A stretch of DNA of 33,671 bases from an uncultured Mollicutes bacterium (GTDB taxonomy: Bacteria; Bacillota_I; Bacilli_A; Acholeplasmatales; Anaeroplasmataceae): positions 1 through 33,671 of the forward strand of contig CAMELE010000024.1 in assembly GCA_945923475.1 (NCBI GenBank), written 5' to 3'. The first letter of the stretch is position 1. Each line of letters begins with the position of its first letter. The notes below the pieces were generated by a model that saw only the letters and a program-made list of their open reading frames with translations, was not told the DNA's origin and did no database searches. Below, one piece after another: positions 16,309 through 33,620 of this stretch. Position numbers and translations under genes: made by a program.

Positions 16309-16336
16309 TTGAAATCGTTTTCTAGCGTACTATACT
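16309..16336 (+). promoter_or_regulatory. Sigma-A promoter of the purE operon
   Basis: TTGAAA (16309-16314), a 16-base spacer, then TATACT (16331-16336). A start point near 16343 would give a leader of about 305 bases before purE, enough to hold the riboswitch and both terminators. Confidence 0.6.
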
Positions 16337-16400
16337 AGCATTTGATGTATTTTTATGCTAATATATCAATGTATTTAAAATTTAAATGAAAATATATTTA

Positions 16401-16471
16401 TTCTTGTATATAAGCTTTAATGTGGTAAGCAAGTTTCTACCCCATAACCGTAAATATTGGGACTACGAGAA
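16401..16471 (+). ncRNA. Guanine-class purine riboswitch aptamer
   Basis: The conserved core is present in order: P1 5' strand TTCTTGTA (16401-16408), J1/2 TATA, P2/L2 with GCTT...AATGTGG...TAAGC, J2/3 AAGTTTCTACC (16431-16441), L3 ACCGTAAAT, and J3/1 GACTACG. P1 closes as an 8-bp helix with TACGAGAA (16464-16471), one G-U pair. The residue equivalent to xpt C74, which pairs with the ligand, is C16463, giving guanine rather than adenine specificity. P2 ends in a U-U pair beside L2, as the adenine add riboswitch does. P3 contains adjacent U-U and A-A mismatches next to L3, which is unusual. Binding is expected to turn purE-guaA off. Confidence 0.93.
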
Positions 16472-16499
16472 AAGATAAGGCGTAAGACGCCCTCTTTTT
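16469..16499 (+). terminator. Terminator 1 after the riboswitch aptamer
   Basis: GGCGT (16479-16483) and ACGCC (16487-16491) form a GC-rich stem with loop AAG. AAAAGA (16470-16475) can extend it by pairing with TCTTTT (16493-16498), and the T run 16495-16499 follows. Its outer arm overlaps the last bases of aptamer P1 by two. This is the expected position for a riboswitch terminator. I could not identify by eye a conventional antiterminator acting before this point. Confidence 0.72.
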
Positions 16500-16500
16500 G

Positions 16501-16535
16501 CTTACACATAAAGTATGAGGTGTTTTATGAGTAAG
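16501..16535 (+). promoter_or_regulatory. Hairpin presenting a leader-peptide start site
   Basis: CTTAC-A-CATAAA (16501-16512) pairs with TTTATG-A-GTAAG (16524-16535): 11 pairs around one A-A mismatch. The 11-base loop holds GAGGTG (16517-16522), a six-base Shine-Dalgarno, and the stem contains ATG 16527-16529 paired to CAT. No T-tract follows, so it is not a terminator. It looks like a structure that controls access to the start of the small ORF below. Confidence 0.5.
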
Positions 16536-16601
16536 TGTAAATTAAGAAAATTCAATAATAAACAAACTCATATATATGGGAATACTATGCAATTGCGATA
16601 A
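16527..16601 (+). CDS. Candidate 24-residue leader peptide of the pur operon
   Basis: The ORF runs from ATG 16527 to TAA 16599-16601 and would encode a 24-residue basic peptide starting MSKCKLRKFNN and ending GNTMQLR. It resembles no known protein and has no run of one regulatory amino acid. It is reported because of its position: GAGGTG lies 4 bases upstream of the ATG, and the stop codon falls inside the 5' arm of terminator 2 (16594-16602). A ribosome reaching the stop would cover that arm and block the hairpin. In AT-rich DNA a short ORF can arise by chance, so the call depends on this geometry, not on the peptide sequence. Confidence 0.38.
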   Translation: MSKCKLRKFNNKQTHIYGNTMQLR

Positions 16602-16624
16602 CTTTTTTGTTGTCGCATTTTTTT
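16594..16624 (+). terminator. Terminator 2 just upstream of purE
   Basis: TGCGATAAC (16594-16602) and GTTGTCGCA (16609-16617) form a 9-bp stem with one U-G pair and a T6 loop, followed by seven Ts (16618-16624). By eye it is among the best intrinsic terminators in the window, yet it lies only 23 bases before the purE start codon and inside the operon leader. It must therefore be regulated or leaky for purE-guaA to be expressed. Confidence 0.85.
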
Positions 16625-16647
16625 AATTTAAAAACGGAGGAATTAAC

Positions 16648-17112
16648 ATGGTTGGAGTTATAATGGGCTCAAAAAGTGATTATGAGGTAATGAAGGATGC
16701 GTGCGACATACTTGATTTACTAGAAATTGAATATGAGGTGAAGGTTGTATCTGCACATAGAACACCTAATTTACTTGTATCATATGCCCAAGAAGCTGCA
16801 CAAAGAAACATCGATTTGATTATTGCTGGAGCAGGAGGTGCTGCTCATTTACCAGGAATGGTAGCGTCACTTACACATCTACCGGTCATTGGTGTTCCAG
16901 TAAAATCAAGAGCTTTATCAGGTATTGATTCACTTTTATCTATTGTACAAATGCCTGGTGGAGTACCTGTTGGTACAATGGCTATTAATGGGGCTAAAAA
17001 TGCTGGATTATATGCAGCATCAATCTTAGCAATGCATGATGAAAAGGTTAAAAAGAATTTGATTGCGTATAGGGAAAAACAAACAAAGGATGTGCTTGAA
17101 ATTGAACTCTAA
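16648..17112 (+). CDS. purE: N5-carboxyaminoimidazole ribonucleotide mutase
   Basis: PurE moves the carboxyl group of N5-CAIR to carbon, making CAIR, the sixth intermediate on the way to IMP. The 154-residue product is a class I PurE, as its pairing with PurK implies: [10 protein letters not shown] (6-15), SAHRTP with His37 (35-40), and [15 protein letters not shown], then [13 protein letters not shown]. Length is typical (~160). The ATG at 16648 follows CGGAGG. It is the first gene after the riboswitch leader and overlaps the start region of purK by about 20 bases, so the two enzymes, which act in sequence, are translationally coupled. Confidence 0.97.
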
Positions 17113-32090: not shown

Positions 32091-33620
32091 ATGAGTGATA
32101 AAATAATAGTATTAGATTTTGGTTCACAATATAATCAATTAATCGCAAGACGTATAAGAGAAATGGGCGTTTATAGCGCCCTATTACCTCATACAACTTC
32201 TGCGGAAGAAATCAAAAAAATGGAAGGCGTTAAGGGTATTGTATTTTCTGGTGGACCTAAATCAGTATATGATAAAGACGCATTTAAATGCGATAAAGAA
32301 ATATTCAATTTAGGATTACCTATTTTAGGTATTTGTTACGGAATGCAGCTTTGTGCTTACACATTTGGTGGTCAAATTTCAGCTAGTAGCACTAAAGAAT
32401 ACGGAAGAATGGAAATTGAGGTAGATAATACTTCTTTACTATTTAAGGATTTAAGTCAAAAGGAAGAAGTATGGATGAGTCATGGTGACCATGTAAGTCA
32501 ATTACCAGAAGGATTCAAGCTTTTAGCTAAAACATCTAACAATTTGGTAGCTTCCATTGCGTGTGAAGCAAAAAAGATTTACTGTGTACAATTCCATCCA
32601 GAAGTAAGACATACTGTAAACGGAAATAAGATGATTTCTAATTTCGTATTTGAAATTTGTAAAGCCCAAAGCAATTGGTCAATGAAAAATTACTTAGACA
32701 TGCAAATTGAAGAAATTAGAAAAACTGTTGGCGATAAGAAGGTACTTTGTGGACTTTCTGGTGGTGTTGACTCTACAGTAGTTGCCGTACTTTTACATAA
32801 GGCTATTGGTAAGCAATTAACATGTATGTTTATAGATCATGGATTGCTTAGACAAAATGAAGCAGCTGAGGTTATGGCTGCATGTTCTAAGTTTGATATG
32901 AATGTAATTAAAATTGATGCTAAAGATAGATTCTTATCTAAGCTTGCAGGTGTTTCTGAACCTGAAAAGAAAAGAAAAATCATTGGTAATGAATTCGTAT
33001 ATTGCTTCGACGAGGAATCTAAGAAGCTTGGTGAATTTGACTTCTTAGCCCAAGGAACACTATATACAGACGTTATCGAATCAGGTACAGCTACAGCTCA
33101 AACAATCAAGTCACACCATAATGTTGGCGGACTTCCTAAAGATATGAAATTTAAGCTAATCGAACCTCTTAACGTTTTATTTAAGGATGAGGTTAGAGCT
33201 TTAGGTCTTGAGATGGGATTACCATATGAAATCGTATGGCGTCAACCATTCCCAGGTCCAGGTCTTGCAATCAGAATTATCGGAGATATTACAGAAGAAA
33301 AGCTTGAAATCGTTCGTAAGAGTGATGCGATCCTTCGTGAAGAAATTGCAAGAGCAGGTCTTCAGAAGGATATTTGGCAATATTTTACAGCTCTTACTAA
33401 TATGAGAAGTGTTGGTGTAATGGGTGATGGAAGAACATATAATTATGCTATAGCTATTAGAGCAGTTACATCTATCGATGGAATGACAGCTGACTGGGCT
33501 CGTATTCCTTATGATGTTCTTGATATCATTTCAAGAAGAATTGTAAATGAAGTTCAAGGTGTTAACCGTGTACTACTTGATTGTACATCTAAACCACCTG
33601 CAACAATTGAGTTTGAATAA
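32091..33620 (+). CDS. guaA: GMP synthase (glutamine-hydrolysing)
   Basis: GuaA aminates XMP to GMP using ATP and glutamine. The 509-residue product has an N-terminal class I glutaminase domain, with [16 protein letters not shown], Cys82 in GICYGMQ and QFHPEV, then the ATP-pyrophosphatase domain with the PP-loop [10 protein letters not shown] (221-230). The C-terminal dimerisation region contains [13 protein letters not shown] and ends KPPATIEFE, the standard family terminus, so the gene is complete. AGGAG precedes the ATG. It appears to be the last gene of the operon. Its product, GMP, feeds the guanine pool sensed by the leader, closing the loop. Confidence 0.98.

Follow-up and report, generated by a model that had tools for sequence, protein, structure and literature searches.

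The window, the whole 33,671-nucleotide stretch of DNA analyzed here, carries a purine operon in the order purE, purK, purL, purC, purF, purM, purN, purH, purD, folD, purB, guaB, and guaA (to position 33620). The gene content from purE to guaA that a preliminary description of the locus had given for this operon was verified. The following features were located in its leader and at its first gene.

16309-16336, + strand: promoter-like sequence TTGAAA-16-TATACT from a consensus scan; weak, as such sites are not above shuffles in this region
16401-16471, + strand: guanine-type purine aptamer (RF00167, 72 bits), with P1 formed by 16401-16408 and 16464-16471
16415-16433, + strand: P2 hairpin and start of J2/3, CUUUAAUGUGGUAAGCAAG, targeted by the switch strand; base-paired with 16497-16513 when no constraint is put on the fold
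16469-16499, + strand: hairpin 1 with a U-run, previously called terminator 1 (-10.4 kcal/mol, z -3.5)
16497-16513, + strand: switch strand, UUUGCUUACACAUAAAG, 17 nt; alternative pairing with the ORF start or aptamer P2, each at 9.3 kcal/mol or more
16500-16536, + strand: start-site hairpin burying the AUG (-10.5 kcal/mol, z -2.3)
16517-16522, + strand: Shine-Dalgarno sequence (SD) GAGGTG (-6.9 kcal/mol against the anti-SD)
16527-16601, + strand: 24-codon leader open reading frame (ORF) encoding MSKCKLRKFNNKQTHIYGNTMQLR, with stop codon TAA at 16599-16601; position kept in relatives
16594-16624, + strand: terminator 2, with a stem at 16594-16617 (-12.8 kcal/mol, z -7.0) followed by seven T
16648-17112, + strand: purE, the first gene of the operon (TIGR01162, 217.6 bits)

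All SD energies refer to an assumed anti-SD sequence.

The single Rfam match in the window is the purine riboswitch RF00167, at positions 16384 to 16485 (72 bits, E value 4.7e-11), which exceeds the gathering score of 37. The core coordinates agree with those of the guanine aptamer proposed earlier. GACUA occupies positions 16461 to 16465, and C16463 is the guanine-type specificity base, which we take to be the counterpart of C74 in xpt. The same genome has a second purine riboswitch (L002, contig C52) before fhs, which encodes formate-tetrahydrofolate ligase; in that leader, a 13-codon ORF stops 4 nt ahead of the terminator, and no switch strand was recognized.

Among the named relatives of purE are Anaeroplasma and uncultured Acholeplasmatales, so the window is probably from the order Acholeplasmatales. 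Family-wide, a purine riboswitch was found in 29 of 55 genomes. Near purE, Rfam did not find one in four loci of Anaeroplasma or uncultured Acholeplasmatales (L034, L036, L041, and L047). Two 72-bit purine aptamers with hairpins, L141 (G011) and L142 (G001), have no downstream ORF of at least 80 codons in the available stretch and are possibly orphans. Six Acholeplasmatales loci (L225, L227, L228, L229, L231, and L232) have a purine-type aptamer of 60 to 67 bits followed by a conserved structured stretch, AGGGGTTGTTT...ACGTAG...GGGGATAAGTAGC. This second stretch matches no other Rfam family and lies before a terminator and a gene whose product starts with MNIWHDI and, judged by eye, is inorganic-pyrophosphatase-like.

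Both ends of the leader ORF are embedded in RNA structure. In the computed fold, the AUG at 16527-16529 base-pairs with 16507-16509 inside the start-site hairpin, and the stop codon sits within the 5' arm of terminator 2. The hairpin over the start site with the ATG in its stem, the 24-codon ORF behind GAGGTG, and the strong terminator with the stop codon in its 5' arm all stand as first described. The gene purE begins 46 nt past the leader stop codon and has a strong SD of its own (-9.5 kcal/mol). Only about 0.5 to 1% of shuffles of the window leader give an SD-preceded ORF of at least 8 codons that ends on terminator 2; these shuffles, together with those of the relatives' leaders, rule out a chance ORF.

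The preliminary description had connected the aptamer to the start-site hairpin but had missed the switch strand at 16497-16513. The connection itself is supported by the alternative pairings of this strand, which can pair with the aptamer, where the 9-nt core of its target is GUAAGCAAG (16425-16433), or with the ORF start. When the aptamer is forced to form, the probability that the window AUG is unpaired is 0.00, and it is 0.50 when the switch strand is on the aptamer. The SD of the window is no better hidden in the bound fold (unpaired probability, 0.66 versus 0.57); the AUG alone changes. Between the same two states, the unpaired probability of the SD rises from 0.05 to 0.79 in L136, from 0.00 to 0.32 in L120, and from 0.13 to 0.47 in L122. 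By computation, the full-length apo fold exceeds the aptamer fold in stability by about 10 kcal/mol, and control would therefore be kinetic.

Anti-aptamer pairing tested alone was consistent but mostly gave p values of 0.007 to 0.2 per leader. Therefore, we adopted a two-way test that asks for a single 12-nt segment pairing well with both the aptamer and the start region. Two-way pairing was above chance both across 30 leaders (Fisher, 1e-7) and across 13 representatives (9.5e-5). Individually, p was 0.0017 in L133 and L127 and 0.007 in L120, while six leaders (L114, L129, L137, L122, L288, and L248) were not significant singly and the signal was absent in three NCS2 permease leaders (L244, L245, and L247; Fisher, 0.57). 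Sequestration of the ORF start in alternation with the aptamer, which is characteristic of a translational platform, was thus found with a significance that lies over the leaders, the window alone giving a p of 0.03.

In relatives, the switch strand is UUGCUUACC, UUGCUUGCC, or UUGCUUAUC and its partner in the aptamer is always GGUAAGCAA, with an SD-side partner that varies along with the switch strand (GGAGGUAAG, GGAUGG, and GGAUGGUA). In one genus, the switch strand UAGAGACUU targets J2/3, and the start-site helix ACUUGGAUC:GAUGCAAGU shows compensatory differences in sister genera. In another family, UUUUGUCG pairs with the 3' strand of P1. The aptamer targets of the switch strands are therefore of three kinds, namely, the P2 3' arm, J2/3, and the P1 3' strand.

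Recurrence of the layout was scored by a rule that required an ATG, an SD of -5 kcal/mol or better, at least 8 codons, and a stop codon from -12 to +25 nt relative to the start of the last terminator. Leaders were counted as long when 60 nt or more separated the last terminator from the aptamer, and expectations were taken from dinucleotide shuffles. Such an ORF is present in 17 of the 20 long leaders of the window's family, versus 0.48 expected (the count was also run with a stricter positional window), and these leaders precede purE, purK, purS, guaB, or fhs. As a control in the family, other codons taken as pseudo-starts gave about 5% per codon versus 85% for ATG. In a sample of 60 leaders drawn from across the class, the layout is present in 10 of 13 long leaders (0.31 expected), and it extends beyond the window's family to four further families (f10, f13, f19, and f22). 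Within the same order but outside the family, just 1 of 7 long leaders has the ORF, and most leaders have short direct terminators before permeases, without an ORF. As related leaders from one genus do not count as independent, we take the effective number to be about 10 family-by-gene contexts.

The purE leaders of two congeners and of another genus repeat the whole arrangement of aptamer, hairpin, switch strand, SD, 23- to 30-codon ORF, and stop codon on the terminator. The same layout is found before purK and purS in two further genera, in two guaB leaders with 10-codon ORFs, and in an fhs leader. The purE leader peptides differ (MSKCKLRKFNNKQTHIYGNTMQLR, MLKNIKFQLHKQNYHGKMVVLSC, MRNEIFKLNILNAYLYTSFFKLR, and MRNNVLKNLIYIQSCIIYNDFWLRKQSFFY); five of them, from two genera, have the stop position in common and not the sequence, and likewise for purK, purS, guaB, and fhs. 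Conservation of the ORF start and stop positions across relatives, which had been suggested as a check, is therefore seen with wholly different peptides. In three leaders, L114 and L126 of the family and L079, the ORF runs through the terminator, and its translation would likewise block termination. The ORF of L114 and L126 overlaps the start codon of purK, an overlap that would add translational coupling to the relay.

In 23 leaders, no upstream segment pairs with the 5' arm of terminator 2 beyond shuffles (Fisher, p 0.98; lowest single p, 0.07), which gives no indication of a classic antiterminator or a trp-type attenuator. Rho was not found in the 99% complete window genome, which has ATPase-like matches only (43 bits versus a cutoff of 509), and a Rho-dependent model of the Mycobacterium tuberculosis Mbox type was rejected on this ground. 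With neither an antiterminator partner nor Rho, translation is the sole visible link to terminator 2. As in pyrBI-type attenuators, an SD-preceded leader ORF overlaps or abuts an intrinsic terminator. A ribosome with the stop codon in its A site would cover the whole 5' arm of terminator 2 in the window and at least two-thirds of the corresponding arm in 21 of the 23 leaders.

The effect of such proximity has been described in Escherichia coli, in which termination efficiency falls from about 90% to less than 10% when the distance of the stop codon upstream of the terminator is cut from 28 to 5 bp, full efficiency requires more than about 27 nt from the stop codon, and uncoupling of translation abolishes the effect (PMC4824070). 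In E. coli, a terminator can be efficient when it lies within the first 100 bp of a coding region, as the ribosome has not yet caught up (PMC4824070). Since most ORFs with the relay layout are 30 to 90 nt long, the relay would need tight coupling or RNA polymerase pausing. Candidate pausing elements are hairpin 1, in the window and L133, and a mid-ORF hairpin with a U-rich tail in several family leaders. A terminator-like hairpin of the latter kind, often CCATTA..TAATGG with a U-rich tail, occurs in L123, L125, L128, L129, L134, L135, L137, L138, L119, and L133; it is possibly a pause site keeping polymerase and ribosome in step or an additional terminator controlled by translation.

Taken from sequence comparison, the likely output of this guanine riboswitch is translation of the leader ORF, which would in turn decide intrinsic terminator 2. 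When guanine is low, the switch strand would invade the P2 arm of the aptamer and the start-site hairpin could not form. A ribosome following RNA polymerase closely would then read the 24 codons and, once at the stop codon, would cover the 5' arm of terminator 2, allowing transcription into purE-guaA. When guanine is high, the aptamer would be closed before the switch strand emerges, the strand would pair with the ORF start and prevent translation, terminator 2 would fold, and the operon would be off. A pause at hairpin 1 would give the aptamer time for binding. Guanine binding in vivo, translation of the ORF, masking by the ribosome, and the pausing role of hairpin 1 are steps that we infer. 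A relay from guanine sensing via leader translation to terminator 2 had been put forward in the preliminary description, and the comparative evidence supports it, in that the ORF and its stop position recur, the pairings are exclusive, and neither another partner for the terminator nor Rho was found.

Alternatively, the aptamer might act on hairpin 1 as an ordinary terminator, with the ORF and terminator 2 as an independent attenuator of the pyrBI type, responsive to translation or nucleotide supply and not to guanine. The U-run on hairpin 1 in the window and L133 is consistent with this arrangement, as are the permease leaders L244, L245, and L247, which lack the two-way signal and in which a first terminator is followed by an SD-preceded 35- to 45-codon ORF ending on a second terminator. 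These permease leaders may themselves be stand-alone translation-coupled attenuators. For the window, however, we consider separate control by two attenuators unlikely. Counterparts of hairpin 1 in L120 and L127, from another genus, lack the U-run, and no equivalent is present in the L128, L129, and L137 leaders, which excludes hairpin 1 as a conserved guanine-responsive terminator. Further, the switch strand is transcribed after the U-run of hairpin 1, too late to act on it, so termination at hairpin 1 could not be prevented by the switch strand, and aptamer-start pairing is above chance in biosynthetic leaders. The first terminator proposed in the leader thus has the look of a terminator in the window and a congener, without being conserved as such elsewhere. 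To judge from these leaders, hairpin 1 is probably not the guanine-responsive element; it probably serves for pausing or as a spacer, perhaps with constitutive termination to some extent.

Control of the terminator by RNA pairing alone, with the ORF incidental, would make the leader an ordinary direct guanine riboswitch. This is the mode of most purine riboswitches, and the many leaders outside the family that have no ORF, before permeases and other genes, are in keeping with it. Most purK leaders of the sister genus (L113, L115-L118, and L121) also have no ORF; in these, a strand complementary to J2/3 (GTAGAGAC or a sequence close to it) contributes to the terminator's 5' arm, and they look like ordinary direct switches. 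Direct control is nevertheless very unlikely in the window, where terminator 2 has no upstream partner, and the family has 35 times as many stop-on-terminator ORFs as expected. Relatives that keep control without the ORF had been named beforehand as a challenge to the relay. They do exist in the sister genus, but there the anti-aptamer strand is itself the terminator arm, and control would have become direct with the loss of the ORF. An ORF is present in L119 and L126 of the same genus, so the relay and direct designs replace each other. This argues for a regulatory role of the ORF rather than a need for its peptide.

It is highly improbable that the ORF serves for translational coupling to purE or that its product is a small protein with a function: MMQVNN...NG.F is common to the peptides of one genus and the overlap with purK in L114 and L126 would suit coupling, but no relation is seen among peptides of different genera, the part in common falls on the start-site helix ACUUGGAUC:GAUGCAAGU and an internal hairpin, and purE starts 46 nt after the stop codon with its own strong SD. 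Peptide-specific stalling was likewise rejected on the basis of the unrelated peptides.

The relay in the window may be one case of a wider design. On balance, we favor a general third riboswitch output in Bacilli, a ribosome-gated intrinsic terminator, in which an aptamer would control a dispensable leader ORF and a ribosome at its stop codon would mask the terminator. Such an output would have arisen repeatedly before purE, purK, purS, guaB, and fhs, with anti-aptamer strands that differ in their target (P2, J2/3, and P1). If this is true, the ligand signal passes through translation to intrinsic termination, across the usual divide between transcriptional and translational riboswitches, and operon expression depends on guanine together with working ribosomes in bacteria without Rho. 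As the relay works only with ribosomes closely following RNA polymerase, the tightness of coupling in poorly studied Bacilli becomes testable with reporters. The order of aptamer, SD, short ORF, and stop codon on a terminator also provides a search rule for other riboswitch classes.

In the open-access literature, to which our search was confined, we found no guanine riboswitch described as having a leader peptide on an intrinsic terminator. The window leader shares its aptamer class and the genes it serves with the RF00167 members of the Bacillus subtilis xpt, pbuG, and purE leaders. However, in known members control is exerted directly, either at a single terminator or at the SD of the gene itself, whereas the window has a leader ORF with its stop codon on a separate terminator. 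In M. tuberculosis, a B12 riboswitch (ppe2) controls an upstream ORF (uORF), with downstream expression by reinitiation (PMC11260477), and an Mbox (pe20) controls a uORF, with downstream control by Rho-dependent termination (PMC12810186). These systems resemble the window in the translational platform of a riboswitch that controls a short upstream ORF; they differ in that no intrinsic terminator is used (such terminators are rare there), whereas in the window an intrinsic terminator lies on the ORF stop codon in a genome without Rho. The E. coli pyrBI leader is alike in that a closely following ribosome keeps RNA polymerase from stopping at a terminator that overlaps or abuts the leader ORF, but its signal is UTP-dependent RNA polymerase pausing, whereas initiation at the ORF in the window would be set by a ligand-binding aptamer. 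Attenuators of the trp and his type also combine a leader peptide with an intrinsic terminator. They rely on control codons and on hairpins that compete, and in the window no competing hairpin was found; in amino acid attenuators, moreover, the terminator lies more than 20 bp from the stop codon (PMC4824070), whereas in the leaders with the relay layout the stop codon is on the terminator. The aptamer is thus a member of the purine riboswitch class, and riboswitch-controlled uORFs are already known; what appears to be new is the combination of this aptamer with a pyrBI-like output on an intrinsic terminator.
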